From assembly GCA_012521995.1 (NCBI GenBank), contig JAAYLH010000001.1, positions 1 through 43,764 of the forward strand: a stretch of DNA of 43,764 nucleotides, in the 5' to 3' direction. The translations under genes were made by a program, and so were the position numbers. Position 1 is the first letter of the stretch; every line of letters begins with the position of its first letter. Of this stretch, positions 11,047 to 43,688 are shown piece by piece. Source of the DNA: Bacteroidales bacterium. Its GTDB lineage: Bacteria > Bacteroidota > Bacteroidia > Bacteroidales > UBA7960. The notes beneath the pieces are model-generated. The model saw nothing but the letters and a program-made list of their open reading frames with translations, had not been told where the DNA came from and made no database searches.

Positions 11047-11051
11047 GGCCT

Positions 11052-11474: not shown

Positions 11475-11582
11475 TTTGAAGGTCTTAATTATCTGAAACA
11501 ATTGCTGCAAAAGGCAGCGGGGAATAAGGAAGCATAAAAATAATTAATTTGGTGGGTAAAAACCAAACTCATTCTTTTTTTT

Positions 11583-11590
11583 TACCTTTG
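11583..11590 (+). promoter_or_regulatory. Possible -7 promoter element for the DHH-FKBP-lgt operon
   Basis: TACCTTTG matches TAnnTTTG of the Bacteroidota housekeeping sigma factor and lies 44 bases before the ATG at 11627. A matching -33 TTTG at proper spacing was not found. Confidence 0.4.
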
Positions 11591-11626
11591 TTCAACTAAA
11601 AAAATTGCAGGGATTTGAACCCAATA

Positions 11627-27804: not shown

Positions 27805-28989
27805 CTAAATGAAATGAATGCTGATTTCCTTTAAAAATTTGCTTTCCAGGGTATGGGCTATTTTTTTTACCACCGTACGGCGAATTTCTAATTCAACGGG
27901 CAAATTTGGGTCTTGGTGGGCTACATTTACCGCAGTACCGATCCAGAAGTGAATGGAGTCACTTTCCAGAAACATTTTAACAATCTTATCGGCTGGACCT
28001 TTTCCAAGTTCTGTGCGGGGACTGAATTTTTCCAGGATTTCTGACACCTTACTTAATGTGAGGATGCCCTCAGTGACCAAATCTATTCCATCCATAAAGG
28101 ATATCGGAGGTAGATCCGGATCATCAAATTCAAGGGTGTCTTTTATAGGAATATTCAATTCCCTGGAAATAATATCAGCTGTTGATCCCCCGCACAAGAT
28201 CTTTTCACCATTAAAGCTCCTTACAAGTTGGCCAAGCTCTTTATCCTTTTCCTTATCAAAGGGAGGCCCTGAACAAAGTAAAAGCTGTCTGGGTTCACGA
28301 AAATAAATTACAACCGAACTCATATCATCTTTCGCCTGGTAATTATCATTGGCGTGGGCTTTATTGACTATCTTTCCTGCCAGTTTCCCTGCCGATATCT
28401 CAGGGTGATCCCTAATAGTGTCCATGACCAACTGCTCTACATTATCCAAACCCCAACCAAGCAAATACTTTCCTTTCCCCAATCCTGACTGAGTGATTCC
28501 ATCACTCATTAATATAATACGGTCTTCTTTTTGAGCTGTAAAGCTGCAGGCTTTTATTTCCTTTCCAGCATTATTCTCTGATTCTAGCATCAAGTACTGC
28601 CAGTCGGGTTTAAACTTTTCATTTCCCCGCATGACAATAGGATCAGGGTTATCATAATTTATTATGGTGGTTTGACCCGAACTCTCCAGATCAACTATAG
28701 AAAAAGTCGCATAACTGATTTTTCGCTCGCTGCATACAGGAAGGGTATTCATTATGATCTCGGCAATCTTTCTGGCATCTTTATGCTCACGGGTAAAATT
28801 CAAACCCATGGTAGCTGTCAGGGTAGCAAGCAAGTTTGCCTTTACCCCATGCCCCATCCCGTCAGAAAGAACCACAACCGTACGGTTTTCTTCCTTCACC
28901 TTTTGTGAAACGAATACATCACCGCATATACGCTCTCCAGCATGGTTCTTTTGAAACGTTCCTACCTCCGTAAAAAAAAGGTCTTCCAT
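27805..28989 (-). CDS. SpoIIE-type (PP2C) serine phosphatase linked to sensory hydrogenase
   Basis: 394 residues. Residues 1-230 form a SpoIIE/PP2C phosphatase with its metal-binding aspartates: GERICGDVFV, VVLSDGMGHGVKANLLA, IILMSDGITQSGLG and KDDMSSVVIYF. Residues 231-394 are an extra domain I do not recognise (LLLCSGPPFDKEKDK, ILCGGSTADIISRELN, PDLPPISFMDGIDLVTEGILTL, which looks nucleotide- or metabolite-binding). Phosphatases of this build occur next to PAS-containing sensory [FeFe]-hydrogenases (group C3 in current schemes), as here, with a gap of seven bases to that gene. By family logic it would remove phosphate from a serine/threonine of a regulator such as an anti-sigma antagonist, but no such substrate is encoded in this window. 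Confidence 0.88.
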   Translation of the reverse strand: MEDLFFTEVGTFQKNHAGERICGDVFVSQKVKEENRTVVVLSDGMGHGVKANLLATLTATMGLNFTREHKDARKIAEIIMNTLPVCSERKISYATFSIVDLESSGQTTIINYDNPDPIVMRGNEKFKPDWQYLMLESENNAGKEIKACSFTAQKEDRIILMSDGITQSGLGKGKYLLGWGLDNVEQLVMDTIRDHPEISAGKLAGKIVNKAHANDNYQAKDDMSSVVIYFREPRQLLLCSGPPFDKEKDKELGQLVRSFNGEKILCGGSTADIISRELNIPIKDTLEFDDPDLPPISFMDGIDLVTEGILTLSKVSEILEKFSPRTELGKGPADKIVKMFLESDSIHFWIGTAVNVAHQDPNLPVELEIRRTVVKKIAHTLESKFLKEISIHFI

Positions 28990-28996
28990 CCTGAAA

Positions 28997-30847
28997 TCAG
29001 GGTTTGTTTATTTTTTGATAAGTCTCAATAATTGAATTCAGCATCTTTTCCGTGGTACTTGCACCCTCACCAAGTAAAAATGCAATGTTCTGAACCATCT
29101 TCAGATTCTCGTCGATAACCTCCGTGACTCGATTTATGATTTCTTCTTGCCTTACCTCTGCAACATACATATCCCTGAATACACCTCCCACAATTTTATT
29201 GGGTTTCAGTGAATAAATGCTGATATTTAACAGACCATCCCCATGATTAACATCCTTACCAACAACGTTTTCATCGTTTTCAAGGACATAAGAAAAGAGG
29301 TTATAAATAGGGTATGGCAATAAGGTTTTCAAATCTGCACCAACCAAACCCGGAATTACCTCATTGATCATTTCAGCATCCTCGCCCAAAACCTTGATAA
29401 AGCTTTGATTTGACATAATAATTCTGAGTTTGTCATCAACAATTACCGCAGCAGAAGGCAAGTTCTGAAGCAAGGTGGATATGGTATCTGTTTCCTGCTT
29501 AATCTTTTGGTTTTCCGTCTTAAGCACTTTTTCTGTATCCTGAAAAACCTCATTTTGTTTCTTTAGCTTCTCATTATTATTCTTAAGCGTCTTGATATAC
29601 TCCGATTTACTTTTCAGTGAGAAGTTCTGGCACATCTCAGGCTTGCTTAAACCTTGGCTGATTGAAATGGCAAAATCTTTACACGTCCTGAAACCACAAG
29701 CACTGCAGGAGGACCTCTCCTCCAGGTCCTTCCCCAGGCTTTTCAGAATTTCCTCAATGCGGTCATCATGGGGTACAGGAAGTCTTTGGTCATCCTTAAC
29801 AAAAGTTCGCGTGAGATCAAGGTCAGAATATTCTTCAAGGTCTTTCTCCCATTGCCCAACATCAAAGTCCTTGAGCCTTTTATTAGAATATGCCAACACC
29901 AGCGAACGCCTCAAAAACTTATGCGAACGATCCGTAGTCCCGGGTCCCATCAAACAACCCTGATCATAGAATAAACTAAAATGCTTTTTTATGGTTTCAG
30001 TATTTTGGCTGAACTCTTCAACCGCCTGGATCATATTCTCCTTCCCACTGGCTGATATGGTAGAGCCCGAAAGAAGATCAGAGTTAATATTCGCAGCATA
30101 TACAAACCCACTGGGCAAAGGATATAAAGAGCCCAAGTTACCAATGGGGGGATCAAATTCCGAATATTCAACCTTTCCTTCCTTAATGTTAAAGCGAGAA
30201 AATAATTCCCTCAACTCTTTAAAGGTTAACACCGCGTCCACTTTCCCATCATCTGCAAAAAGACCGGCATCATGTTTTGCTGAAAGGCAAGGGCCAAAAC
30301 AGACAATTTTTACATCCTTACCGTGGGTTTTCCTCACCACCTTTGCTGTGGCCGTCATAGGGCTTACAATCGGCGACAGGTTATCCGTCAACTCAGGATA
30401 ATATTTTTCAACATAAGAAACCAGGCTCGGGCAATTGGCTGCCAGGTAATACTTACCCTTAAAGTTTTCAAAAACCTCCTTATATTTCCTGGCAACCAGG
30501 TCAACACCAAACGAAATCTCACTCACATATTCAAAACCTAGTTTGCGGATCATTTCAACAAATTTCCTATAATCCTGGATATCAGGAAATTCACCGCTGA
30601 TGGTTGGGTCAACGATCGCCGCAACTTTATTGTCAGAAGCCAGCAGTTCAACTACGTGCTCAAGATCGCTTACATGAGAAACAGCATTGGATCCGCAAAC
30701 CGAAAGGCAACTCCCGCAACCGATACAACGATCATTATTTACATACGGGTTACCATCACTGCGGGTGGAAATTGCTTTTACCGGACATGACCGGATACAG
30801 GCGTAGGATTGCGTGCAGCGACTATAGTCGATGTTTATGATTTGCAT
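28997..30847 (-). CDS. Sensory-type [FeFe]-hydrogenase-like protein with PAS domain, H-cluster ligands incomplete
   Basis: 616 residues. An N-terminal two-cluster ferredoxin domain has C11-S14-C17-C21 (second cysteine replaced by serine) and an intact C41/C44/C47/C51. The hydrogenase large-subunit fold (about 62-360) follows. At the three H-cluster motifs: YLAANCPSLV (the proton-relay cysteine is Asn138, the cluster ligand Cys139 remains), GPCLSAKHDA (Cys187 remains, lysine shifted by one), and FYDQGCLMGPG (Tyr294 in place of a ligand cysteine, Cys298 remains). An Fe-S motif C381/C384/C389/C406 (PF04060-like) is next, then a coiled coil (415-455) and a PAS domain (about 456-560). The missing cysteine makes a standard H-cluster unlikely. 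Probably a redox sensor or adaptor feeding the SpoIIE-type phosphatase encoded after it. Confidence 0.88.
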   Translation of the reverse strand: MQIINIDYSRCTQSYACIRSCPVKAISTRSDGNPYVNNDRCIGCGSCLSVCGSNAVSHVSDLEHVVELLASDNKVAAIVDPTISGEFPDIQDYRKFVEMIRKLGFEYVSEISFGVDLVARKYKEVFENFKGKYYLAANCPSLVSYVEKYYPELTDNLSPIVSPMTATAKVVRKTHGKDVKIVCFGPCLSAKHDAGLFADDGKVDAVLTFKELRELFSRFNIKEGKVEYSEFDPPIGNLGSLYPLPSGFVYAANINSDLLSGSTISASGKENMIQAVEEFSQNTETIKKHFSLFYDQGCLMGPGTTDRSHKFLRRSLVLAYSNKRLKDFDVGQWEKDLEEYSDLDLTRTFVKDDQRLPVPHDDRIEEILKSLGKDLEERSSCSACGFRTCKDFAISISQGLSKPEMCQNFSLKSKSEYIKTLKNNNEKLKKQNEVFQDTEKVLKTENQKIKQETDTISTLLQNLPSAAVIVDDKLRIIMSNQSFIKVLGEDAEMINEVIPGLVGADLKTLLPYPIYNLFSYVLENDENVVGKDVNHGDGLLNISIYSLKPNKIVGGVFRDMYVAEVRQEEIINRVTEVIDENLKMVQNIAFLLGEGASTTEKMLNSIIETYQKINKP

Positions 30848-30888: not shown

Positions 30889-31146
30889 TCAGCCCTGGGT
30901 TTCAAAATACTGTTCCAGAATACTGATCACATTGGCTTCTGTAACCTGGTTAAACTGGGCTTCATTAATTTTCAGCATGGGGCCAAATTCACAATTCCCG
31001 AAACAATGCGAGCCCTGAAAGGTCACATCTGACAGACGGCCTGTCTCTTTCAGATAATCCTGAATCACTTGCAGGGTCTTCTTGTTTCCTCGCGAAAAAC
31101 AACTGCTTCCCATACAAATGGTAATCGTTATGCCTTGTCCATCCAT
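30889..31146 (-). CDS. Small thioredoxin-like [2Fe-2S] ferredoxin
   Basis: 85 residues from ATG 31146, which has AAGGA four to five bases upstream; a TTG at 31179 is weaker. The fold is the NuoE C-terminal/thioredoxin-like ferredoxin: ITICMGSSCFSRGNKKTLQVIQDYL with the first pair of cysteines, then QGSHCFGNCEFGPMLKIN with the second pair, giving all four [2Fe-2S] ligands. Such stand-alone proteins are regular members of sensory [FeFe]-hydrogenase gene sets and presumably carry electrons to or from the hydrogenase-like protein encoded 41 bases downstream. First gene of the leftward operon. Confidence 0.85.
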   Translation of the reverse strand: MDGQGITITICMGSSCFSRGNKKTLQVIQDYLKETGRLSDVTFQGSHCFGNCEFGPMLKINEAQFNQVTEANVISILEQYFETQG

Positions 31147-31179
31147 TGGTTCCTTCAATATTATTTTGTTGTACTTCAA

Positions 31180-31422
31180 GGTTTAACAAAATTACTCATT
31201 CCTTTTCAATTAATCGTTATCCCCATAACATCTCAAGCCCTTTTCCCCTTATTCTGATTTAATCTAAATTACAATTAGCCTCTCGCCAAAATTTGAAACT
31301 CCTTTTTATTAAGCTTTTAGCCTGCTCAACAACCCCAAAGAGTCATTCTAAACTTATATAATTCCTTGAGATTGCAATATTTAAGACAAAAAATTTTTCA
31401 TTATCCTCAGTTTTGTTTATTA
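31180..31422. other. Divergent intergenic region of the hydrogenase island
   Basis: About 240 bases of AT-rich sequence separate the leftward sensory operon from hydC. No gene or RNA was recognised. It must hold the promoters of both operons; apart from the Rex-like site and a repeated TAAATTACAA half site I cannot place elements with confidence. Confidence 0.6.
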
Positions 31423-31440
31423 TTGTGAAATAAATTACAA
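31423..31440. promoter_or_regulatory. Candidate Rex operator upstream of hydC
   Basis: TTGTGAAATAAATTACAA resembles the Rex consensus TTGTGAA-n4-TTCACAA; the left half is perfect and the right half matches five of seven bases. It ends 10 bases before the hydC ATG and overlaps a weak -7-like element (TATTATTG, 31418-31425), a usual place for repression. rex itself is encoded at 39223 in the same gene run. The decamer TAAATTACAA of its right half recurs at 31265-31274 nearer the leftward operon. Confidence 0.6.
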
Positions 31441-31450
31441 CTTACAATCC

Positions 31451-31930
31451 ATGCAGGCTTCAATTGATGCGATTCTTGAACGTTTCCCCAATAAACTGAG
31501 GGAAGACCTGATTCCGCTGCTGCAGGAACTTCAGGATGAGTATGGTTTCTTATCCGAAGAAATTATTAACCGGGTGGGGCATTATCTTTCCATTTCGGTC
31601 AATAAGATTTATGGAGTGGCCACTTTCTACGACAACTTCAGGTTTGGACCCACTGGAAAATACCACATCAGGCTTTGCCATGGAACGGCTTGTCATGTAG
31701 CAGGAGCTTCTACTTTTATCCAGGAACTGGAGAAACTGCTAAAGATCAAACACGGGGAAACCGACAAAGAAGGTTTATTCAGCCTGGAGGTGGTTTCTTG
31801 TGTTGGTGCTTGCGGTCTTGCCCCCATCATTGAAATCAATGGGGAATACTTCACCAAGCTCACTATCGACGGCCTTATTGATGTAATTCATTCGTTCAGA
31901 GTTAAAGACCAGGATATCTATGAAAGCTAG
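31451..31930 (+). CDS. hydC: NAD-linked [FeFe]-hydrogenase, NuoE-like gamma subunit
   Basis: 159 residues, a complete NuoE/24-kDa-type subunit. The N-terminal helical part (LREDLIPLLQELQDEYGFLSEEIINRV) leads to a thioredoxin-like domain with four [2Fe-2S] cysteines: Cys76 and Cys81 (IRLCHGTACHVAGA), Cys117 and Cys121 (VVSCVGACGLAPIIEING). In trimeric HydABC hydrogenases this subunit works with the NuoF-like HydB in electron transfer to or from NAD(H). Its last 11 bases overlap the next gene. It opens a run of nine plus-strand genes with gaps of at most 41 bases, preceded by a likely Rex operator. Confidence 0.93.
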   Translation: MQASIDAILERFPNKLREDLIPLLQELQDEYGFLSEEIINRVGHYLSISVNKIYGVATFYDNFRFGPTGKYHIRLCHGTACHVAGASTFIQELEKLLKIKHGETDKEGLFSLEVVSCVGACGLAPIIEINGEYFTKLTIDGLIDVIHSFRVKDQDIYES

Positions 31931-33869
31931 ATCACCCCAAGCCATAAAGCAATTTCTGATCAACCAGGTGTTGCTGGATCCTCGCCGCTCTGAGAACCCT
32001 CTGCTCGAAAAAGAACTTTCATATATTAGTCGGGAGCGGGTCAGCAAACCCCGGATTTATGTGGGAATGGGAACCTGCGGTAAGATTGCAGGTGCTGGTC
32101 AAACCTTCCTTACAATTAAGGAATACCTTGATGACCACGGCATTGAAGCTGACCTTGTGGAAGGGGGTTGCATTGGGCTATGCAGCGCCGAACCCATGGT
32201 TGATGTACAATTGCCTGGCAGAGCCCGGGTTTCCTTTGGAAACATTAGCCGGGATGAGGTTCAGTATCTCCTCGATGAGGTACTTAACCATAACCTTCCC
32301 GATCTGAAAATTATTGGGCAATACTCCAATGATATCTCCCAGCCCTGGGATGGGATTCCTTCCGTCTTTGAGCATCCCTTCTTTGTAAATCAAAAAAGGA
32401 TTTTGCTGGATAATTGCGGGTTAATTGACCCCGTCTCCGTTGAAGAATACATTGCCAGAGGGGGTTACTGGGCTTTTACCGATTCCATTTCAAAACTGAC
32501 CCCTGCAGGAGTTTGTGAATTGATTGTTGAAAGCGAACTCTTTGGCAGGGGAGGTGGCGGTTATTCCACCGGAAAAAAATGGGCCGACACCCAGAAAACA
32601 ATTTCTGATCAAAAATTCCTGGTTTGTAATGCCGTGGAAAGTGATCCAGGTAGTTACATGAACAGGGTGATCATTGAAAGCAACCCCCATAGACTGATTG
32701 AGGCGGTATTATTGGCAGCTTATGCAATTGGGGCAACTAAAACCTTCGTGTTTATCAGGCAGGAGTTCAAACTTGCGATCGAACGCCTGGAAAAAGCAAT
32801 AGAAAACGCCCGCAATTTTGGATTGCTCGGGCATCATATTTTTGATTCAGGAGTCAATATCGATATTATTATCAAAAAGGGTGCCAGAGCCTTCGTTTGT
32901 GGTGAGGAGACAGCCTTGAATAACAGCATTGAGGGAAAAAGGGCTATGCCCGAATCCAAACCCCCTTATCCCTCCGAAAAGGGCTTATGGAACAAACCTA
33001 CCATTGTGAATAATGTTGAGACCCTTTTCAATGTTCCCCTGATCCTGAAAAATGGGCCCGATTGGTTTAAGAATACTGGAACCTCGGTAAGCAAAGGCAC
33101 AAAACTTTTTTCACTAACGGGCAAAGTCAGAAACTATGGCACCATTGAGGTTCCTATGGGCGTTTCTTTCAGGGACATCATCTGGAGAATTGGAGGGGGA
33201 ATTGCCGCCAATAAAAAATTCAAAGCCATTATCCTCGGAATCAATTCAGGTAACTATATCACCGAATCCACACTCGACACCAGGATTGACTTTCAAGAGC
33301 TCAAATCCATCGGGACCTCCCTGGGTAGCGGTGGCTTTGTGGTCATTGACAATACCACCTGTATGGTAGACCTGGCAAAATATTTCACCGACTTCTTCAA
33401 AAAGGAAAGTTGTGGAAAATGTATCCCCTGCAGGGAAGGCACCGCACGGCTCCTGGAAATCATGGAGGTCGTTACCCAAAGGCCAGGAAAATTCAGCAAT
33501 TTTCAGACACTCGAACGCTTTAAGGGTGTAATGCAGTTGCGCAGTTTAGCCAACGTCATGAAAGACACCTCCCTTTGTGCCTTGGGAAAATCTGCCCCTA
33601 ATGCCATCCTCAACACCCTGAATAACTTTAAGGGTGAATTCGATGTCCATATTTTTGAGCGAAAATGCCCTGCAAATGTCTGCCGCGACTTAAGGGTCTT
33701 TTCCATTGATGTGGATTTATGCACGGGCTGTACTGCCTGTTACAAAAAATGCCCTGCCGATGCCATCATTGGTTCTGCCAGACATCCCCACTTTGTGGTG
33801 GAAGAAAAATGTATCGGTTGCGGCCTCTGTTACGATGCCTGTAAATTCAATGCGGTTCTAATCCATTAA
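31920..33869 (+). CDS. hydB: NAD-linked [FeFe]-hydrogenase, NuoF-like flavoprotein subunit
   Basis: 649 residues with the HydB layout: an N-terminal thioredoxin-like [2Fe-2S] domain (Cys53; CIGLC at 84-88), the FMN/NAD-binding NuoF core (about 150-480), the N3-type [4Fe-4S] motif ESCGKCIPCREGT with Cys498/501/504 and Cys553, and a C-terminal ferredoxin domain with two [4Fe-4S] motifs (601/604/607/611; 631/634/637/641). In characterised complexes HydB handles NAD(H) and is central to electron bifurcation with ferredoxin. Oddities are in the flavin site: GRGGGGYSTGKKW instead of GRGGAGFPTG, and CNAVESDPGSY instead of CNADEGDPGAF, so a conserved aspartate (Val239 here) is missing. FMN binding or NAD specificity may therefore differ. 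Confidence 0.93.
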   Translation: MKARSPQAIKQFLINQVLLDPRRSENPLLEKELSYISRERVSKPRIYVGMGTCGKIAGAGQTFLTIKEYLDDHGIEADLVEGGCIGLCSAEPMVDVQLPGRARVSFGNISRDEVQYLLDEVLNHNLPDLKIIGQYSNDISQPWDGIPSVFEHPFFVNQKRILLDNCGLIDPVSVEEYIARGGYWAFTDSISKLTPAGVCELIVESELFGRGGGGYSTGKKWADTQKTISDQKFLVCNAVESDPGSYMNRVIIESNPHRLIEAVLLAAYAIGATKTFVFIRQEFKLAIERLEKAIENARNFGLLGHHIFDSGVNIDIIIKKGARAFVCGEETALNNSIEGKRAMPESKPPYPSEKGLWNKPTIVNNVETLFNVPLILKNGPDWFKNTGTSVSKGTKLFSLTGKVRNYGTIEVPMGVSFRDIIWRIGGGIAANKKFKAIILGINSGNYITESTLDTRIDFQELKSIGTSLGSGGFVVIDNTTCMVDLAKYFTDFFKKESCGKCIPCREGTARLLEIMEVVTQRPGKFSNFQTLERFKGVMQLRSLANVMKDTSLCALGKSAPNAILNTLNNFKGEFDVHIFERKCPANVCRDLRVFSIDVDLCTGCTACYKKCPADAIIGSARHPHFVVEEKCIGCGLCYDACKFNAVLIH

Positions 33870-33885
33870 GCTTCAAGGAATCAAT

Positions 33886-35613
33886 ATGGACTTTCAAATT
33901 GAAGTAAACAATAGCCTGATCCTGGTGAATGAAGGGGAAACCCTGCTCACCGCCCTTCGGCGTAATGGAATTAAGATTCCAACACTCTGCCATATGAACA
34001 GATTCTCCCCAACAGGGGCATGCCGGCTCTGTGTGGTGGAGGTGGATGGCAAACGCGATCTGATCACCTCCTGCTCATTCCCCGTCGAAAAAGGAATGAA
34101 GGTGTTCACCAATTCCCCAAGGGTAATTCGCGCCAGGAAGTCCATCGTCGAAATGCTGCTCTCCAATCATCCCGATGACTGCCTTTACTGCGAACGAAAC
34201 GGCAACTGTGAATTGCAGTGGCTTGCAGAAGAAATGAATGTGAAGGAACGGAAGTTCTTTGCAAACAAAAATGCCCAGTATCCTGACAACTCCAGCACCA
34301 GCGTCTTCAGGGATCCTGCCAAATGTGTCCTATGCAGCCGTTGCGTGAGGATCTGCGAAGAGACCCAGTATGTTACTGCCATCGATTTTACTTCCCGCGC
34401 CAACAACATCAAAGTCAACAGCGCATTCAACAAAGGTCTGAATATTTCCAGTTGCATCAATTGCGGCCAATGCATCATGGTCTGCCCAACAGGGGCATTG
34501 ACCGACATTTCCCATATCGAAAAAGTTCAGGCAAATATTGACAAAAAGAAGAAAGAGGTAATCTTTTTTGTTTCCCCCTCCGTCACCGCTTCCATTATTG
34601 AACATTATGGCATAAAAACAGAACAAAACCCTGCTTGGTTGATTTCGGCCGCTTTAAAAAAGATGGGGGCAAGCAAGGTATTCGACCTGGGTGTTGCCTC
34701 TGATTTAAATATTCGCGAAGAAGCCAGGCTGCTAATTGATAGGGTAAAAAATGGAAATAAAGGGCCATTGTATTCGTCATGCTGCCCCGCTTGGGTGAAA
34801 TTTGTTGAGGAATTCCAGCCTGAATTGATTCCCTCTCTTTCTACGGCCAAATCGCCCCAACAGATTTTCGGAGCATTACTGAAGACCTGGTATGCAAAGG
34901 AAGAAAAAGTAATGCCCGATAATATTTTCAGTGTGGCAGTGATGCCTTGCGTGGGAAAGAAATTTGAGGCCTCCCGCGAAGAAATGACTTTTAAGGGCAT
35001 CTCCGAAGTCGATGCCGTTCTTACAATCCGCGAATTCGTCAGGATGGTGCGCAGCAACGGGATCGACCTGAGAAGGATTGAACCGGTGCCTTTCGATAAA
35101 CCTTTTTCTGCAAGCAGCAAAAATGCCCTTAAACTGGGATACTTGGGTGGAAAGGCTGAAGCCATTGCCTTCGAACTCTTTGAAAACCTCAAGACTTCCT
35201 CCAGGGAAACCTTCAAGTTTAATGTCCCCAAAAACCTGTCAGGCCGTAAGGAATTTAAACTGAACATTGGAAAGAAAACCATCGGGTTTGCTTGGGTAAG
35301 TGGCATCACCAACGCCAAAGCCTATATTGATGATTTGATTGCCGATGGACGAAGCGATATCCATTACATCGAGGTCATGACTTGCCTCGATGGCTGTGTG
35401 GGGGGAGGTGGGCAACCCATTAACCGCATCCCCGATAAAACAAAAAACAGAAAAAAGGCTTGCCAGGATCTGGAAAAATTTTCCCCCTGGGACAACCCTG
35501 GAAACAATATCTGTCTGGATTCAATCTTCCGAACAATGGAAAAAAGTCCCGACAAGGAAACCTGGCCTAAATTATTCCATACCCGTTTTATTGAAAGAAA
35601 TGTACCGAAATAA
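33886..35613 (+). CDS. hydA: [FeFe]-hydrogenase catalytic subunit
   Basis: 575 residues, close in length to clostridial CpI. In order: plant-type [2Fe-2S] (Cys35/46/49/63), His-ligated [4Fe-4S] (His95, Cys99/102/108), two [4Fe-4S] (147/150/153/157; 190/193/196/200), then the H-domain. Motifs are L1 SSCCPAWV (Cys299, Cys300), L2 MPCVGKKFE (Cys355, Lys358, Glu361) and L3 EVMTCLDGCVGGGG (Met498, Cys500, Cys504), so all H-cluster ligands are present. It reduces protons or oxidises H2, with electrons passing through HydB/HydC. Proton-path residues Glu279 and Ser319 are present, but the place of Glu282 is leucine (REEARLLIDR). The familiar GGVMEAA stretch reads GGKAEAI. Third gene of the operon. 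Confidence 0.95.
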   Translation: MDFQIEVNNSLILVNEGETLLTALRRNGIKIPTLCHMNRFSPTGACRLCVVEVDGKRDLITSCSFPVEKGMKVFTNSPRVIRARKSIVEMLLSNHPDDCLYCERNGNCELQWLAEEMNVKERKFFANKNAQYPDNSSTSVFRDPAKCVLCSRCVRICEETQYVTAIDFTSRANNIKVNSAFNKGLNISSCINCGQCIMVCPTGALTDISHIEKVQANIDKKKKEVIFFVSPSVTASIIEHYGIKTEQNPAWLISAALKKMGASKVFDLGVASDLNIREEARLLIDRVKNGNKGPLYSSCCPAWVKFVEEFQPELIPSLSTAKSPQQIFGALLKTWYAKEEKVMPDNIFSVAVMPCVGKKFEASREEMTFKGISEVDAVLTIREFVRMVRSNGIDLRRIEPVPFDKPFSASSKNALKLGYLGGKAEAIAFELFENLKTSSRETFKFNVPKNLSGRKEFKLNIGKKTIGFAWVSGITNAKAYIDDLIADGRSDIHYIEVMTCLDGCVGGGGQPINRIPDKTKNRKKACQDLEKFSPWDNPGNNICLDSIFRTMEKSPDKETWPKLFHTRFIERNVPK

Positions 35614-35623
35614 CAGCATTTAA

Positions 35624-37666
35624 ATGGACCAGCCCGTTATTAACCAATTTATTTTTACTGTAAAGGATCGATGTAAGGTTTGCTACACCTGTGTCAGGGA
35701 ATGTCCTGCCAAAGCCATTAAAATCATCAATGGCCAGGCTGAGATCATTCCCTCACGCTGTATTTCTTGTGGCAATTGCGTGAAGGTTTGCAGCAGGGAA
35801 GCCAAGATGTTTACTTTCGCCATCGATAAAGTAAAAAAACTGCTGCGGGAAGAAAAGGAAGTGGCAGCCATCGTGGCCCCCAGTATTGCAGCCGAATTTA
35901 CCGACATTTCCGATTATTATGCTTTTGTGGGTATGATCCGGGCGCTCGGCTTCAAGTATGTGAATGAAGTGGCTTTTGGCGCTGAACTGGTGGCCCACAA
36001 ATACCAGGAACTGCTTCAGAAAAACCCTGAACGGTCTTACATTTCTACCAGTTGTCCCTCCATCGTAAACTTTGTTGAAAAACATCATCCCCAGATCATT
36101 GAAGCATTGGCCCCTGTCGTTTCTCCCATGGTTGCCACTGCTAAAGTCCTGAAAAAAATGCATGGGGAGGACATAAAAATTGTTTTCATTGGTCCCTGTA
36201 TCGCGAAAAAAGGGGAAGCAGTGCGTGATGAATTCAATGGACTGATTGACGAGGTCATCTCCTTTATTGAGCTTCGAAGGATGTTCTCCGAAAAAGGAGT
36301 GACCCAAGACAATGTCGAACCCTCCGATTTTGATACGCCAGCCGCCGGCAGGGGAGCAGTATTCCCCATCAGCGGAGGAATGCTCCAGACGGTGAACCTC
36401 GAAGAAGACTATATCAGTGGCGAAATCGTGGTGGCTGAGGGACGCCAGGATATCATTGAAGTTTTGCGCGAATTCGAAGAGGGCTACCTTGAAGCTAAAC
36501 TATTCGACCTTTTGTGCTGCAACGGATGCATCAACGGGCCTGGAATGAGCCATAAGCAACAGTTCTTCAACAAAAGGAAAAGCATCTCAAACTTTGCCAA
36601 ACGCAAATTTGACAAACTCGATGTTAAGGAATGGGAAAAGAATCTCAACACCTATCTGCAACTGGATTTAAGCCGTTCTTACATCCCTGATGACCAGCGG
36701 TTCCCTAATCCCCCAAACTCTGAAGAGATACGGGGAGTATTGAAAAACCTGGGCAAAGAATTGCCTGAAGATGAGCTGAATTGCGGAGCCTGTGGTTACG
36801 ATACCTGTTATGATCATGCCGTCGCCATTCTCAAAGGTATCGCTGAAACAGAAATGTGCCTGCCATACACTATTGACAAACTGCACGAATATATTAAGGA
36901 ACTCGACATCTCCAATAAAAAACTGGAATCAACCCAAGCTGCCCTGAAACAAAGTGAAAAGCTTGCTTCAATGGGGCAATTGGCGGCTGGTATTGCCCAC
37001 GAGGTGAACAATCCACTCGGAGTAGTCATCATGTACAGCCATATCCTGCTCGATGAAGTCGAAGAAAATTCACCCATTCACCGCGACCTCAAACTCATCG
37101 TGGAACAAGCCGACCGCTGCAAGAAAATCGTGGGTGGACTGCTTAATTTCGCTAGGAAAAGCAAGGTTTCCATCAATCAGATCAATGTAAACCAGCTTGT
37201 CAAGGATAGTTTGCGTACTTTAGTTTTGCCCCCGAATATAAAAATGGTCACCCAAACCAGAACCAACGACCCAATGGTTGAATGTGACCACGACCAAATG
37301 GTCCAGGTGTTTGCCAACCTGTTTAAAAACGCCATAGATGCCATGCCAGGCGGAGGCACCCTTAAGGTTACAATCGATGACCATGCCCATGGCAATGAAG
37401 TCCAGTTTGAAGTTTCTGACTCAGGATCAGGTATTTCCCTTGAAAACCAGGAGAAGATGTTTGAGCCTTTCTTCACCACCAAAGAAAATGGCAAGGGTAC
37501 AGGCTTGGGCCTGCCCATCATTTATGGTATTGTAAAAATGCACCGCGGGAACATCAAAGTGGAAAGCAACAACGACCCCGATAAAGGGGATACAGGAACA
37601 ACTTTTTTTGTCAGTATCCCCCGTAAATCGGCAAGCGCTAAAGAAGAAAATTTAAGCGTCGCATAA
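35624..37666 (+). CDS. [FeFe]-hydrogenase-like sensor fused to a histidine kinase
   Basis: 680 residues. Ferredoxin domain with two intact [4Fe-4S] motifs (Cys17/20/23/27; 46/49/52/56); hydrogenase large-subunit domain (about 70-365) with L1 STSCPSIV (Ser143 at the proton-relay position, Cys144 ligand), L2 GPCIAKKGE (Cys192, Lys195, Glu198) and L3 [11 protein letters not shown] (Cys298, Cys302), so all four cluster cysteines remain; a PF04060-like Fe-S motif (Cys387/390/395/412); a coiled coil; and a kinase with His459 (IAHEVNNP), N box [17 protein letters not shown] and GTGLGLPI. It fits histidine-kinase-linked sensory (group C1) hydrogenases: H2 or redox state at the H-cluster would set kinase activity. 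Two receiver-containing genes follow directly, which are probable partners. Confidence 0.92.
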
Positions 37667-37678
37667 AAATCTTTTATT

Positions 37679-38077
37679 ATGTTGAAAAAAATTAAAAGAA
37701 CAATCTTGCTGGTGGACGATGACCCAGATTATATTTTCCAGATGAGATCGACCATCCAGGAAATGGGGTTTGAAGTGATTACAGCTGAAACCCAAAAAGA
37801 AGCAGAGAATATTATCGATCGGATCAAACCCGATCTGGCAATCCTTGATTTGATGATGGAAAGCCAGGATACTGGGTTTATCCTTTGCCATAAGGTGAAG
37901 AACAAGTATCCTGAAGTGCCTATCATCATAGCTTCGGCCGTTACTGCGGAAACAGGAATGATCTTCGATGTCAACACCCAGGATGACCAGGACTGGATCA
38001 AGGCCGATCTCTTCCTCGATAAAGGCATCAGGAACGATCAACTGCATAAGGAAATCAATAAACTGCTAAAAATTTAA
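37679..38077 (+). CDS. Single-domain response regulator
   Basis: 132 residues forming one receiver domain and nothing else. Acidic pocket Asp13-15 (ILLVDDDPDY), phospho-acceptor Asp57 (LAILDLMME), Ser86 (IIIASAVT) and Lys115 (LFLDKG) are present. A loop of about ten extra residues sits between beta4 and beta5 (FDVNTQDDQDW). Lacking an output domain, it probably relays phosphate or acts by protein contact. It lies 12 bases after the hydrogenase-kinase fusion gene and two bases before a receiver-kinase gene, so a relay between those two proteins is the natural guess. Confidence 0.9.
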   Translation: MLKKIKRTILLVDDDPDYIFQMRSTIQEMGFEVITAETQKEAENIIDRIKPDLAILDLMMESQDTGFILCHKVKNKYPEVPIIIASAVTAETGMIFDVNTQDDQDWIKADLFLDKGIRNDQLHKEINKLLKI

Positions 38078-38079
38078 CC

Positions 38080-39207
38080 ATGGGGAAACTGAAACTGCTG
38101 GTGGTCGATGATGAACCCGGGATCAGAAGCGGGGTGATTCGTATTCTCGAAAACTTCTCGGTGAGCTATCCCTTTATGGACGAGGACTTTGACTTTAATG
38201 TGGCAGAAGCTCCTACGGGTGAAGATGCCCTCGACCTCCTGGTCGACAACGAATTCGACATCGTCCTACTCGACAATAAGCTCCCGGGAATTCAAGGCAT
38301 TGATGTCCTGGAGTTTATCAATAAAAAACAGCTCGATGTGGTGGTGGTAATGATCACTTCCTATGCCTCCCTCGACTTGGCTGTCAAAGCTACTCGCAGA
38401 GGGGCCTACGACTTCGTCCCCAAGCCATTTACCCCAAAGGAACTCAGAGCTACTATCGAAACCATTACCAAGCAGTTGTTTCTCAGGCGGATGACAAAGA
38501 AACTAAACGTGGAAGGCCGACAAATCAGGTTTCAATTCCTTTCCGTTCTTTCCCACGAGCTAAAAGCTCCTATCAATGCAATTGAGGGTTACCTCAAAAT
38601 GATGCAAGATAAAAAAGAAGGCGACAGGATCGACGACTACATGGAAATGATTGACCGCTCCCTGTTTCGCGTCCAGAGCATGCGCAATCTGATTATGGAT
38701 ATGCTCGACTTTACCAAAATCGAATCAGGTAAAAAAATCCGCAAAATTGAACCTATCATGCTTTGTGATGTGGCCCAGCAATGCATCGACTCCTTCCAGC
38801 CCTTAAGCATTCAAAAAGGCATTGACACCTACCTGAATTGTGGATCAAAAATCCCAATACGCGCTGACCGGCAGGAAATTGAAATCGTCCTCAACAACCT
38901 GATCAGCAATGCAATAAAATACAATAAGGAAGGGGGCCGGGTCGATGTTAGCCTGGGCATAGATGGAAACAATGCAACAATCAGGGTGGAAGACACCGGA
39001 ATAGGAATGAATCCCGATGATATTGGGAAGCTGTTTGAAGACTTTGTAAGGATAAAAACAGAGGAAACCAAGAACATCAGTGGAAGTGGCCTGGGTTTAT
39101 CCATTGTAAAGAAAATCCTTAATTTATACGAAGCAGATATTCAGGTGGAAAGCACCCCTGGAGAAGGAAGCAGCTTTACTGTCTTGTTTCCCATTGATAA
39201 TCCTTAA
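38080..39207 (+). CDS. Receiver-histidine kinase hybrid (REC-HisKA-HATPase)
   Basis: 375 residues. An N-terminal receiver domain (1-125) has DDEPG, phospho-acceptor Asp65 (IVLLDNKLPG), Thr/Ser switch (MITSYAS) and Lys115 region (VPKPFTP). A HisKA domain with His159 (SHELKAPINAIEG) and an HATPase domain (NNLISNAIKYN, DTGIGM, GSGLGLSIVKKIL) follow. There is no membrane segment and no DNA-binding output, so it is a cytoplasmic kinase whose activity is controlled by its own receiver. It is a likely second tier in a relay started by the hydrogenase-kinase fusion. The final DNA-binding or other output regulator is not evident in the window. Confidence 0.9.
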   Translation: MGKLKLLVVDDEPGIRSGVIRILENFSVSYPFMDEDFDFNVAEAPTGEDALDLLVDNEFDIVLLDNKLPGIQGIDVLEFINKKQLDVVVVMITSYASLDLAVKATRRGAYDFVPKPFTPKELRATIETITKQLFLRRMTKKLNVEGRQIRFQFLSVLSHELKAPINAIEGYLKMMQDKKEGDRIDDYMEMIDRSLFRVQSMRNLIMDMLDFTKIESGKKIRKIEPIMLCDVAQQCIDSFQPLSIQKGIDTYLNCGSKIPIRADRQEIEIVLNNLISNAIKYNKEGGRVDVSLGIDGNNATIRVEDTGIGMNPDDIGKLFEDFVRIKTEETKNISGSGLGLSIVKKILNLYEADIQVESTPGEGSSFTVLFPIDNP

Positions 39208-39222
39208 AACGACAGACAAAAA

Positions 39223-39855
39223 ATGCCAAACAAAAAAATTGAAGAGCTTCCTGGTAAAACCGTAGAACGCCTCAGCCAATACCGGCGCCTGCTTTTTAAT
39301 AGCGTCGAATTGGGTAAAACCAATATATACTCACATGAATTGGCCAGAATGATGAACCTTACTCCCGTGCAGGTGCGCCGCGACCTGATGCTCATTGGAT
39401 ATTCGGGCAGTCAAAGCAAGGGGTATGTTATTAAAGACCTCATTTCCCTCATCGGAAAAATCATCGACAGCGATACGGGCCAGCGCATTGCCATCATGGG
39501 AATGGGCAACCTCGGAAGGGCAATAACAAGCTATTTCACAGGGAAACGCGAAAAGCTGTCCATCGTGGCCGCTTTCGATAATGATCCCCAAAAATACGAT
39601 CGTATCATTGCCGGGGTACCCTGTTACCACATCAACAAATTGAAAGAAGTCGTCCAAAAGGAAAACATCGGGATTGCCATCCTTACCGTTGCCCCCCAAG
39701 CAACCCACGAAGCAACCAAACTTATGCTGGAAGCAGGGGTCAAAGGAATCCTGAACTATACCTCCGTGCCTGTATCCGTCCCTGAAGGAGTCTTCCTTGA
39801 AGAATACGACATCATTACCTCACTTGAAAAACTTGCTTTCCTGGTAAAAAAATAA
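39223..39855 (+). CDS. rex: Redox-sensing transcriptional repressor Rex
   Basis: 210 residues, the standard Rex length. The winged helix (about 10-70) has ERLSQYRRLLFNSVELGKTNIYSHELARMM and the recognition part TPVQVRRDLMLIGYSG. The Rossmann domain carries GMGNLG (93-98) and AAFDNDPQK for NADH binding; the C-terminal helix is domain-swapped in known dimers. Rex leaves DNA when the NADH/NAD+ ratio rises, releasing fermentation and hydrogenase genes. Here rex is in the gene run starting with hydC, where a Rex-like operator is found (31423-31440), so control of the hydrogenase operon, including rex itself, is likely. Confidence 0.95.
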   Translation: MPNKKIEELPGKTVERLSQYRRLLFNSVELGKTNIYSHELARMMNLTPVQVRRDLMLIGYSGSQSKGYVIKDLISLIGKIIDSDTGQRIAIMGMGNLGRAITSYFTGKREKLSIVAAFDNDPQKYDRIIAGVPCYHINKLKEVVQKENIGIAILTVAPQATHEATKLMLEAGVKGILNYTSVPVSVPEGVFLEEYDIITSLEKLAFLVKK

Positions 39856-41717: not shown

Positions 41718-43148
41718 ATGATCTACTATCCACAAAAATATTCTATCAAGGACGAACGGATGAAGCCGTTTATCGATCCTGGTGAAATATGGGACTTCAT
41801 AAATAATACCAAGGCTGATAAGCAACGTGTTCGTGAGGTCATCAAAGCCTCCCTTGACAAAAAACGCCTGTCCCTCGAGGAAACCGCCGTTTTGCTCAAC
41901 GCCACCGACCCGGAACTAATCGAAGAGATCAAGGAAGGGGCACGACAGCTAAAGGAAAAGGTGTATGGCGAAAGGATCGTTCTTTTTGCCCCCCTTTATG
42001 TTGGCGACCTGTGCACCAACAACTGCCAGTATTGCGGATTCCGCTCCACCAATAAGGATGTGAAGCGCATCACCCTTTCCCGCGATGACCTGATTAACGA
42101 AACCACTGCCCTGATTGACCAGGGACATAAGCGCCTGATCCTTGTGTATGGCGAACACCCCAAATATTCCGCAGAATTTATTGCCGAAACCGTACGCATC
42201 GTCTACTCAGTGAAACACAACCACGGCGAGATCAGGCGCGTGAACATCAACGCCGCGCCCTTCGACATCCCGGGTTTCCGTACCGTGAAAGATGCAGGCA
42301 TTGGAACCTTCCAAATCTTCCAGGAGACTTACCACCAGCCCACCTATGCCAAGGTCCACCTGGGCGGAGTGAAGCGCAACTACGACTGGCGCCTTACCTC
42401 ACTCGACCGTGCTCAGGAGGCAGGCATCGATGACGTCGGAATTGGTGCTCTGTTCGGCCTGTACGACTGGCGCTTTGAAGTAATGGGCCTGGTTAGGCAT
42501 GTAAATCACTTTGAGGCAACCTATAATGTCGGCCCTCATACAATCTCTTTCCCCAGGATACAAAATGCCCTCGAATTGAACATCGAAAAGGACCACCTTG
42601 TTAATGACGAAGAATTCGTTCGCCTGGTATCCATCCTCAGGTTGGCGGTTCCCTATACGGGGATGATCCTTACTGCCCGCGAACCCGCTCATGTCCGCGA
42701 TCAGATCATGCGCTTCGGGGTCTCGCAAATCGATGGCGGAACCAACCTTGAGCTCGGCGGTTATTCCAAAGGAAAACACGAAGGCGATCAGGACCTCAGC
42801 ATGGAGCAGTTCCAGATCAACGACAACCGCTCCCTCAACGAGATCATGGACGAATTGATCAGAACAGGCTATATCCCTTCTTTCTGCACCGCCTGCTATC
42901 GACTCGGCCGCACAGGAGAACACTTCATGGAATTCTCTGTCCCCGGTTTCATCAAAAGGTTTTGCTCACCCAACGCCATCCTTACCCTGGCCGAATACCT
43001 CGAGGATTATGCCCCCCAGGATACCCGGGAAGCAGGATACCAACTTATCAGCAAAAAAATTGATGAACTGTCCAAATCTACTAAAGTGGACAGCCTGAAA
43101 GAAAAACTCGGGATGATCAAGGAAGGAAAACGCGATTTATATTTCTAA
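41718..43148 (+). CDS. hydG: [FeFe]-hydrogenase H-cluster maturase HydG (radical SAM tyrosine lyase)
   Basis: 476 residues, full length. The radical-SAM cysteines are in GDLCTNNCQYCGF (Cys99/103/106). The C-terminal auxiliary cluster that binds the Fe(CO)2(CN) product has Cys390 and Cys393 (CTACYRLGRTGEHF) and Cys416. HydG splits tyrosine to p-cresol and a glycyl fragment, from which CO and cyanide of the H-cluster are made. VYGEHPKY, NAAPFDIPGFRTVKDAGIGTFQIFQETYH and the TGMILTAREPAHVRDQIMRFGVSQIDGGT segments agree with the family. HydE and HydF are also needed for maturation and are not in the window, but a gene starts at its right edge. The stop overlaps the next start by one base. Confidence 0.97.
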   Translation: MIYYPQKYSIKDERMKPFIDPGEIWDFINNTKADKQRVREVIKASLDKKRLSLEETAVLLNATDPELIEEIKEGARQLKEKVYGERIVLFAPLYVGDLCTNNCQYCGFRSTNKDVKRITLSRDDLINETTALIDQGHKRLILVYGEHPKYSAEFIAETVRIVYSVKHNHGEIRRVNINAAPFDIPGFRTVKDAGIGTFQIFQETYHQPTYAKVHLGGVKRNYDWRLTSLDRAQEAGIDDVGIGALFGLYDWRFEVMGLVRHVNHFEATYNVGPHTISFPRIQNALELNIEKDHLVNDEEFVRLVSILRLAVPYTGMILTAREPAHVRDQIMRFGVSQIDGGTNLELGGYSKGKHEGDQDLSMEQFQINDNRSLNEIMDELIRTGYIPSFCTACYRLGRTGEHFMEFSVPGFIKRFCSPNAILTLAEYLEDYAPQDTREAGYQLISKKIDELSKSTKVDSLKEKLGMIKEGKRDLYF

Positions 43149-43426
43149 TGGCTACCGATATGAAACAAACAATGATTCTCGGAATTCTGGTCTTTGACCG
43201 CATTAAGGAAGCAGGAAAGACCCAGAAAATATTGTCAAAGCATGCTGGTATCATTCGCACCCGGCTTGGTTTTCACGAACTCTCTGAAGCCGTGTGCAGT
43301 CGCATAGGATCTGTTCTTCTTATCCTGGAAGGGCAACCAGAAGACTGGCAAGTGCTCGAAAAAGACCTTTCGCAGGTCGGAGGCATTGAAATCCAGAAAA
43401 TGAAATTCGATTATTTGTCAAAATAA
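43148..43426 (+). CDS. TM1266-like iron-only hydrogenase system regulator, copy 1
   Basis: 92 residues. ILGILVFDRIKEAGKTQKILSKHAGIIRTRLGFHEL, VLLILEG and GGIEIQKMKFDY fit the small ferredoxin-like/NikR-ACT-type TM1266 family, which sits in many hydrogenase maturation operons and is annotated as a regulator, although its mechanism is unproven as far as I know. No DNA-binding helix-turn-helix is visible. The start overlaps the hydG stop by one base, so expression is coupled to the maturase. A second copy follows 10 bases later. Confidence 0.85.
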   Translation: MATDMKQTMILGILVFDRIKEAGKTQKILSKHAGIIRTRLGFHELSEAVCSRIGSVLLILEGQPEDWQVLEKDLSQVGGIEIQKMKFDYLSK

Positions 43427-43436
43427 TTCTTTAACG

Positions 43437-43688
43437 ATGTCAGAAATTAGAGTATTAGGTGTATTGGTATCAGAAAAGAGCCAGGCAGCCATCACGGTTC
43501 AGGAAGTCCTTACCAAGTACGGCTGCAACATCAGGACCCGACTGGGTTTGAATGAATTGGACAGGGAACAGTGTGCGGGTTGTGGGTTGATCATCCTTGA
43601 GCTTATGGGCGACCTAAACGAAAGCCTCAGGCTTGAGAATGACTTATGGGCAATTCCTGGCGTTAAGGTTCAAAAAATGATTTTTTAA
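43437..43688 (+). CDS. TM1266-like iron-only hydrogenase system regulator, copy 2
   Basis: 83 residues sharing the fold pattern and motifs of the preceding protein: RVLGVLVSEKSQAAITVQEVLTKYGCNIRTRLGLNEL (compare IIRTRLGFHEL), LIILELMGD and PGVKVQKMIF. It differs in having two nearby cysteines (REQCAGCGLIIL), where copy 1 has CSRIGSVLLIL, so one member of the pair could bind a metal or cluster, or sense redox. Tandem duplication followed by divergence is the simple explanation; the two may form a heteromer. Confidence 0.8.
   Translation: MSEIRVLGVLVSEKSQAAITVQEVLTKYGCNIRTRLGLNELDREQCAGCGLIILELMGDLNESLRLENDLWAIPGVKVQKMIF

Follow-up and report, generated by a model that had tools for sequence, protein, structure and literature searches.

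Sensory [FeFe]-hydrogenases have long been proposed, and the two characterized ones carry no attached output. In this study, we examined a window of 43,764 nucleotides (contig JAAYLH010000001.1) from a Bacteroidales genome, in which a hydrogenase-like domain (H-domain) and a histidine kinase share one chain, and asked what this protein senses and where its signal goes. Since the fusion is nearly always accompanied by the same two partners, it forms a defined, testable cascade relevant to how H2-producing anaerobes adapt fermentation to H2 pressure.

Genetic organization of the locus

The gene order in the window is hydCBA, fusion, receiver (REC), receiver-histidine kinase (REC-kinase), and rex, all on the plus strand. 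The hydrogenase genes comprise a hydC-type subunit (31451 to 31930; 2Fe-2S thioredoxin-like ferredoxin), a hydB-type subunit (31920 to 33869; Nuo51 FMN-binding, NADH_4Fe-4S, and Fer4 domains), and hydA for a group A [FeFe]-hydrogenase (33886 to 35613), whose best NCBIfam model, FeFe_hydrog_A6, scored 586.6 bits, below the model cut-off of 765. They are followed by the fusion sensor kinase (35624 to 37666; 680 amino acids), the stand-alone receiver (37679 to 38077; 132 amino acids), and the REC-kinase (38080 to 39207; 375 amino acids), with spacings of 12 and 2 bases, and directly thereafter by the gene for the redox-sensing repressor Rex (39223 to 39855). The H-cluster maturase gene hydG lies at 41718 to 43148 (plus strand), and contig C76 of this genome carries hydE and hydF. 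A divergent unit on the minus strand starts with a gene for a 2Fe-2S thioredoxin-like ferredoxin (30889 to 31179) and contains a HydS-like paralogue of the fusion H-domain (28997 to 30847) adjoining a SpoIIE-type phosphatase gene (27805 to 28989).

Pfam matches, each above the curated cut-off, were Fer4_10, Fe_hyd_lg_C (E value, 2e-51), FeS (PF04060), HisKA, and HATPase_c in the fusion, Response_reg in REC, and Response_reg, HisKA, and HATPase_c in the REC-kinase. The initial annotation had described exactly these coordinates, lengths, and gaps for the three genes, and the profiles bear out its reading of the domains.

Conservation of cluster ligands and phosphorelay residues

The ferredoxin part of the fusion contains two [4Fe-4S] motifs (C17 to C27 and C46 to C56), the H-domain spans residues 78 to 306 (C144, C192, K195, C299, and C302), and the FeS domain spans residues 385 to 414 (C387, C390, C395, and C412). 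All 12 cluster cysteines of both N-terminal motifs and the FeS domain are kept in 106 of 106 aligned fusions. The initial annotation had counted four H-cluster cysteines in the fusion; C144, C192, C299, and C302 are invariant (139 of 139 fusions), and a lysine occupies the K358-equivalent position in 132 of the 139 and is absent in seven.

The third H-cluster motif, C298-C299-N-G-C302 (36515 to 36529, plus strand), is of the form Cx2C, with one residue fewer than the Cx3C of group A, which was present in all 118 HydA sequences fitting the search pattern (15 of 133 fell outside it). Judged from the alignment, the ligand in this motif is most likely C299. The neighboring C298 was rejected as a ligand because it varies among the 139 fusions (Cys in 83, Phe in 46, Tyr in 5, and others in 5), while C299 never does. 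An AlphaFold2 model of the fusion, predicted from an alignment of 20 rows, had a mean pLDDT of 76 and was weak around His459; the best 50 PDB matches listed in a structure search with it were all [FeFe]-hydrogenases. The predicted model confirms the H-domain fold only, and the placement of C299 comes from the sequence alignment.

Ser143 (36050 to 36052, plus strand) is the equivalent of the proton-relay cysteine C299 of CpI, as annotated initially, and had been put forward as an argument for a sensor. Its position stands, and the argument is weak because aspartate is the commonest residue at this site and C299D retains activity. Among the 139 fusions, we counted Asp in 70, Pro in 26, Ser in 17, Ala in 14, Phe in 6, Asn in 3, and Thr in 1, with Cys in a single sequence, so that Ser143 appears as a minority state. 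Reported activities were 30 to 80% for CpI C299D and its HydA1 equivalent and below 1% for CpI C299A or C299S (PMC6226526).

The phosphorelay residues were found at the positions claimed at the outset. His459, the predicted phospho-acceptor of the fusion (36998 to 37000, plus strand), is histidine in 146 of 146 kinase sequences, although this histidine was itself part of the motif used to select them. In the N and G boxes, the Asn, Asp, and Gly positions are likewise kept in all 146, apart from one Gly (145 of 146). Asp57 of the stand-alone receiver is present in 133 of 133 sequences, and Asp65 and His159 of the REC-kinase are present in 125 and 124 of 125, respectively. The acid pair, phospho-Asp, Thr/Ser, and Lys occur in the 133 receivers and 125 REC-kinases, the phospho-Asp and Lys being invariant in both, and the second kinase is intact.

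Co-occurrence in related genomes

The fusion was found in 64 of the 198 Bacteroidales genomes searched, usually behind hydA, and its placement in such an operon, which the initial annotation considered possibly new, is therefore not peculiar to this genome. We read all 64 full-length Bacteroidales places besides the window's own, excluding partial matches (G061, G116, and G188). HydA is encoded immediately 5' of the fusion in 60 of 63 of these loci (58 by script plus L088 and L097 by listing). Where there was room, a receiver follows the fusion in 61 of 63 loci (59 by script plus L097 and L099 by listing) and a REC-kinase is present in 56 of 59. Both partners also accompany the fusion in each of the 25 loci found in other Bacteroidota, all of which were read, and, with genes labelled by best BLAST match, in 26 of 29 loci read from the phyla of G589 and G591. 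Of the two wider searches, one contributed 20 regions from the 52 places listed, and the other contributed nine of 11 long fusion matches plus five other regions; the long matches left out (G731 and G767) were incomplete. Exceptions exist: the REC-kinase is absent despite room in L065, L106, and L121, the latter two also being without the receiver, and L194, L199, and L200 also deviate from the order. The predicted co-occurrence thus holds in Bacteroidota and in both other phyla, and the trio is not a chance arrangement, since the same order recurs in most relatives read.

Distance correlations, computed on loci L064 to L127 only, were modest and not specific throughout: divergence of the H-domain correlated with that of the receiver (0.53), the REC-kinase (0.52), and HydA (0.27), whereas the kinase domain and the REC-kinase correlated with HydA (0.45 and 0.47, respectively) at least as strongly as the kinase with the receiver (0.44).

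Phylogenetic position of the H-domain and its paralogue

In a tree of 62 H-domains, which was built on a subset of the fusion, HydS, and HydA sequences (15 more were dropped for a failed motif match) and included no characterized group C enzyme, the 10 HydA sequences formed one clade (100/100). The fusion stood with HydS and eight of the 10 other sequences across a 97/94 branch from HydA, and L026 and L217 were the non-HydA sequences on the HydA side. This supports assignment of the fusion H-domain to the sensory rather than the catalytic group A H-domains, as the initial annotation had anticipated. The fusion also has the group C features of an N-terminal two-cluster ferredoxin, an H-domain, and a C-terminal four-Cys FeS domain, and its family keeps the H-cluster ligands with the proton-relay cysteine mostly replaced.

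The SpoIIE-linked HydS-like protein, overlooked in the initial annotation, is a derived paralogue of the fusion with H-cluster residues missing: it is without the K358 equivalent, and Asp replaces the third-motif Cys. HydDB distinguishes subgroups C1, "Histidine kinase-linked (putative)," and C3, "Phosphatase-linked (putative)" (PMC5037454). In our tree, the phosphatase-linked gene nests within the kinase-fused family, and linkage therefore does not separate C1 from C3 in this clade. Kinase-linked proteins are filed as C1 or C3, depending on the paper: as C3 for kinase-bearing proteins beside A3 genes (PMC11406978) and as C1 for a Bacteroidales kinase-linked hydrogenase (PMC7768429). A C1 label for the fusion is thus not established.

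Exchange of the sensor domain

One Bacteroidales family, also missed initially, has a Cache sensor where the H-domain would stand. Its loci L153 and L154 retain hydCBA-kinase-receiver-REC-kinase-rex with a Cache_3-Cache_2 sensor and are sisters to the window's clade in the kinase tree (SH-aLRT, 91) and the REC-kinase tree (95). By sequence, the input domain was exchanged while the rest of the set was retained, indicating that a relay lacking an H-domain is possible. A single clade of all Cache kinases was disfavored by an AU test (P = 0.024), a mild result for a group named after seeing a tree. In the reduced kinase tree used for this test (57 of 146 kinase sequences), a single Cache origin is compatible with the well-supported branches; the REC-kinase tree (49 of 125 sequences) forces at least three label changes but includes two long rows. 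The swap offers a natural control, and the degenerate HydS-like paralogue a probe of the residues needed for sensing.

Promoter region and candidate outputs

Just 5' of hydC lies a Rex-box-like palindrome, TTGTGAAATAAATTACAA (31423 to 31440, plus strand). With the Rex consensus and three mismatches allowed, the window gave seven matches versus four expected; the candidate site is suggested by its being the best match (two mismatches), by its position, and by the relatives, which were compared with shuffles preserving single-base content only. For sigma-54, there was no plus-strand promoter match 5' of hydC, and a single-mismatch match at 31374 to 31388 lies on the minus strand; across the window, 64 such matches were found versus 46 expected. 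The relatives' upstream regions showed an excess (5 of 100 versus 0.55 in shuffles preserving single-base content only), with too few matches to use as evidence, and a sigma-54 promoter before hydC was rejected.

No linked output regulator was recognized within the window. The hybrid kinase at 24758 to 27523 was dismissed as the output, as no counterpart was seen at the corresponding position among the relatives' genes listed. The genome's four strong sigma-54 activator matches sit on other contigs, two with a receiver-like start by eye, and NtrC-type sigma-54 regulators adjoin the kinase/receiver/REC-kinase set in L193 and L199, a hint as to the output.

Proposed mechanism and alternative explanations

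The sequences show which components are present, that their catalytic and ligand residues are conserved, that they co-occur, and that the input domain was exchanged; from these we infer that H2 is the signal and which way phosphate flows, as well as the output and its target. The best reading is a modular phosphorelay that adjusts hydrogenase expression in response to H2 or to the redox state of the H-cluster. In its specific form, which we consider probable, a cytoplasmic H-cluster sensor of H2 would feed a dedicated branched phosphorelay tuning its own bifurcating-type hydrogenase operon. Reaction with H2 would alter the state of the H-cluster, and this change, transmitted to the kinase via the FeS domain and a helical linker, would set autophosphorylation of His459. 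The phosphate may then move to Asp57 of the lone receiver and Asp65 of the REC-kinase, whose own kinase (His159) would signal onward to an output regulator at another locus. Rex responds to NADH/NAD+ and could supply a second input. The presence of hydE, hydF, and hydG in the genome supports an H-cluster sensor; we found no published report that such a fusion responds to H2.

A rather unlikely alternative is that the fusion senses electron flow: reduced ferredoxin or the HydABC complex would load the N-terminal clusters, the H-cluster would act as a slow valve or capacitor, and the kinase would read the ferredoxin/H2 balance. The fully conserved N-terminal and FeS-domain clusters and the usual operon of a ferredoxin- and NADH-coupled enzyme type fit this, as does the frequent Asp at the CpI C299 position, a residue with which CpI and HydA1 still transfer protons (PMC6226526). 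However, a ferredoxin-only reading would make the invariant H-cluster ligands needless, and such ligands can disappear, as they have in the HydS-like paralogue. That damage by O2, CO, or another H-cluster poison shuts the relay off is improbable. Although [FeFe] H-clusters react with O2 and bind CO (PMC8163306), among the genes scanned and recognized in the window's cluster, none suggests O2 or CO handling, and the steady position behind HydA argues against it. We give least credence, and very little, to ordinary two-component genes standing near hydCBA by chance beside an H-domain no longer binding its cluster. H-cluster motifs are hardly findable in Hydrogenedentota group C1 proteins (PMC11406978) and the Cache variants manage without an H-domain, but the four invariant cysteines and the order held in Bacteroidota and most loci from two other phyla speak against it.

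Beyond the favored H2-responsive relay, we tentatively suggest, as a possibility short of even likelihood, that the phosphorelay is a plug-in unit for the redox control of fermentation. In this view, a single kinase/receiver/REC-kinase set would serve bifurcating-type hydrogenase operons in several phyla, with an H-cluster domain as the usual input and a periplasmic-type Cache domain in one Bacteroidales family. A second copy of the H-domain would have lost its H-cluster residues and been coupled instead to a SpoIIE phosphatase that faces the promoter region shared with the operon. If so, the live sensor would read H2 and the dead one something else, perhaps ferredoxin or the state of the live sensor.

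Comparison with known systems

The regulatory [NiFe]-hydrogenase, which works with the kinase HoxJ and the response regulator HoxA, operates in the same way, as a hydrogenase-based H2 sensor with a histidine kinase and transcription output, but its metal site and protein family are unrelated and its kinase is a separate protein. The two characterized sensory [FeFe]-hydrogenases share the H-domain, the C-terminal FeS domain, the replaced CpI C299 equivalent, and a nearby hydrogenase operon; in contrast, no kinase is described on their chain, and they have Ala where the window has Ser. Petrimonas belongs to the Bacteroidota. ING2E5A_0849 of Petrimonas mucosa is annotated as a C1, histidine kinase-linked hydrogenase near hnd genes, its partner genes not being named in the available text (PMC7768429). 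The BfuT proteins of Hydrogenedentota (group C3 proteins that carry either a PAS or a histidine kinase domain and are encoded next to A3 genes), likened here by description, are also kinase-bearing sensory-type hydrogenases in a bifurcating cluster; the main text describes no receiver/REC-kinase partner and uses "response regulator" 0 times (PMC11406978). HydDB group C has in common with our fusion an H-domain protein predicted to sense H2 via a kinase, with the phosphatase-linked type represented here by the paralogue next door (PMC5037454). Kinase-linked group C hydrogenases were thus predicted before, and the fusion set is a variant of that type in which the kinase lies on the same chain and a receiver and a REC-kinase are conserved alongside.

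Organization of the hydrogenase locus

The source genome comprises 3.26 Mb, and the window corresponds to its contig C59, for which the nearest named matches come from Bacteroidales metagenome genomes. On the forward strand, hydC-hydB-hydA (31451-35613) directly precede the gene for the 680-amino-acid fusion of ferredoxin, H-domain, Fe-S and histidine kinase domains (35624-37666), which is followed by genes for a lone receiver (37679-38077) and a REC-kinase (38080-39207). Downstream of this trio lie rex, genes for a ribF-type FAD synthetase and a metallo-beta-lactamase-fold protein, hydG, and two CPF_0552/TM1266-like genes. The initial annotation had described the trio as a putative H2-sensing phosphorelay, and its coordinates, intergenic gaps and named residues were correct when checked on the window sequence and by profile matches. 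Furthermore, hydE, hydF and hydG are all present in the genome, and therefore the H-cluster can be made.

Divergently from hydC, the reverse strand carries genes for a 2Fe-2S ferredoxin, a HydS-like H-domain protein (28997-30847), a SpoIIE phosphatase beside it (27805-28989) and a hybrid kinase (24758-27523). The latter contains PAS domains, a receiver and an Hpt-like end; no hybrid kinase was seen at that place in the loci of relatives. The small CPF_0552/TM1266-like proteins form a tandem pair after hydG (43148-43688), of which the first misses and the second passes the CPF_0552 cut-off. Contig C21 of the same genome (G000; loci L001, L002 and L006) harbors two further HydA-type genes and a gene for a 459-amino-acid H-domain protein.

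Spread and conservation of the trio

When the fusion served as query, 64 of the 198 genomes searched within the order contained a full-length relative, as did 26 of 395 genomes sampled from the phylum; both counts include the own genome. The phylum to which G589 belongs (a genome carrying locus L022, with a record named KSB1) yielded matches at E ≤ 1e-80 in 35 of 82 genomes, and the one that includes G591 (carrying L031, with a record named Desulfobacterales) yielded 11 long fusion matches in a set of 247 genomes.

Neighborhoods were read for 89 Bacteroidota loci (64 of the order and 25 others); downstream of the fusion, the sequence extends for 450 bases or more in 63 of the 64 order loci. 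A receiver directly follows the fusion in 59 of these 63 by script; L097 and L099 were added from the gene listing, so that only L106 and L121 truly lack it. Of the 59 order loci with room for a REC-kinase, 56 have one (it is missing in L065, L106 and L121). The script placed HydA, the group A [FeFe]-hydrogenase, immediately before the fusion in 58 of 63 loci, and the gene listing adds L088 and L097. With sufficient room, rex follows the set in 32/57 order loci, and HydS faces the operon in 22/48. All 25 other Bacteroidota loci carry receiver and REC-kinase, and 18 have HydA directly upstream by script (L129 and L134 added from the gene listing); rex was matched in none of these 25, and a facing HydS in none of the 22 with room. 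In the phyla of G589 and G591, a receiver and a REC-kinase-like gene, labeled by best BLAST match, follow the fusion in 26 of 29 fusion loci read; L194, L199 and L200 depart from the trio order, and some loci contain two receivers or two fusions in tandem. A second kinase with an extra PAS domain occurs in L128 and L208.

Several loci showed further peculiarities. L196, L197, L198 and L202 encode tandem hydrogenase-kinase fusions with a small receiver-like gene in between. In L208 (4664-6943, reverse strand) and L210 (13087-15372, forward strand), the trio occurs without hydCBA in the stretch read and is followed by a 760-amino-acid protein with DHODB Fe-S, NAD-binding, Fer4_20 and Pyr_redox_2 domains, resembling a fused Nfn-type transhydrogenase. 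Extra lone receivers of about 170 amino acids with a long insert in the C-terminal half (L018, 5170-5736; L098, 4201-4716; L156, 7197-7715) are located upstream of hydC or of a Cache kinase. The trio of L117 is accompanied by HydB and HydA that diverge strongly from those of the window (31% and 27%), and the fusion gene of L017 is split into two open frames (9941-10309 and 10313-11959), possibly by an assembly error in this metagenome genome.

H-cluster and catalytic residues

In 139 aligned fusions, C144, C192, C299 and C302 are invariant and the third H-cluster motif is Cx2C. The corresponding HydA motif is Cx3C in all 118 pattern-matching rows, with 15 of 133 HydA rows outside the pattern, and Cx3C is also kept in several more distant sensory-type H-domains. 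Lysine occupies the position of CpI K358 in 132/139 fusions. The catalytic residues of receiver, REC-kinase and kinase are almost invariant among relatives, the kinase rows having been selected by the motif around the histidine.

Position 143, equivalent to the proton-relay residue C299 of CpI, is variable in the fusions (D 70, P 26, S 17, A 14, F 6, N 3, C 1, T 1), and Ser143 of the window is a minority state. In CpI, less than 1% of activity is left in C299A or C299S, and 30-80% is kept in C299D and its HydA1 equivalent (PMC6226526). Thus, with Asp in 70 of 139, half of the fusion rows possess a residue capable of proton relay. Across sensory enzymes in general, the reported shares at this position are about 43% for Ala, 17% for Cys and 10% each for Pro and Ser (PMC10055695).

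Origin of the HydS-like paralogue

In a 62-row H-domain tree, all 10 HydA rows group in a single clade (100/100), and a 97/94 branch sets 50 rows apart from it, comprising 29/29 fusions, 13/13 HydS-like proteins and 8 others; L026 (long) and L217 are the two non-HydA rows on the HydA side. The HydS-like clade (100/100) lies inside a larger clade of 27 rows (100/97), whose other members are 14 fusions, all but one from Bacteroidota; the exact sister of the HydS-like clade is the window's fusion clade, with weak support (85/65). Because of this nesting, the phosphatase-linked HydS-like protein of the window is best read as having arisen by duplication of the H-domain of the fusion. H-cluster residues that the fusion keeps are lost in it: among 38 HydS-like rows, none has Lys at the K358 position and 24 have the third-motif Cys, which is Asp in the window's copy. 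In 18/38, Ser replaces the second Cys of the first ferredoxin motif.

Apparent exchange of the sensor domain

In two genomes of one family (G162 and G054), the kinase bears Cache_3-Cache_2 where the fusion has its H-domain (L153, 8401-10224; L154, 7789-9600), within the gene order hydC-hydB-hydA-kinase-receiver-REC-kinase-rex. Their kinase domains are sisters of the window's clade (SH-aLRT 91), as are their REC-kinases (SH-aLRT 95), so this looks like an input swapped within a kept operon. Full-length relatives of one Cache kinase were found in 7 of the 198 order genomes searched, and of six loci read (the seventh, in G103, being outside the count) only L153 and L154 lie in a hyd operon. The kinases of L155-L158 all match Cache_3-Cache_2 (4/4), adjoin a REC-kinase in three cases, and branch elsewhere inside the tree of hydrogenase-fusion kinases; the evidence against a single clade of all Cache kinases is mild (p 0.024). 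Given how broadly the H-domain form is distributed, it may have preceded the Cache form in this unrooted comparison.

Candidate outputs

The window contains no recognised output regulator. Two loci from the phylum of G589 encode regulators of the NtrC type (REC-sigma54-HTH_8), located after fusion and receiver in L199 and ahead of the set in L193. Proteins of another type occur in the phylum of G591: in 4/4 scanned, H-domain and Fe-S domain share one chain with a sigma-54 activator and HTH_8, without intervening domains (L213, 8998-11649, and L214, 9363-11675, forward strand; L215, 8323-10638, and L216, 8350-10692, reverse strand), making these candidate one-protein H2-responsive transcription activators. 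The kinase part of the fusion scores best against the AtoS and ZraS models, far under their cut-offs, and the own genome contains four strong sigma-54 activator matches, all on other contigs. Upstream of hydC, a Rex-like palindrome with two mismatches is present (31423-31440); similar palindromes occur in 20 of 100 upstream regions of relatives, compared to 0.1 on average after single-base shuffling. We therefore propose that the hydrogenase operon receives two inputs, Rex and the relay, and that the final regulator of the relay would be encoded away from the locus. The predicted signalling route leading from H2 to gene expression is plausible and by now well specified.

Comparison with published systems

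In a literature search, with most subscription journals outside it and most papers covered by their search entries alone, neither the receiver/REC-kinase set nor the Cache swap nor the duplication of HydS from the fusion was found described, nor was the Cx2C motif, which was not itself a search term. HydDB labels group C1 histidine kinase-linked and group C3 phosphatase-linked, each as putative (PMC5037454); Hydrogenedentota are described with kinase-bearing C3 proteins beside A3 genes and with C1 proteins having hardly any H-cluster motifs (PMC11406978), and Petrimonas with a C1 protein near hnd genes (PMC7768429). From these reports, a kinase-linked sensory hydrogenase in a bifurcating-type hydrogenase cluster is therefore already known as an annotation.
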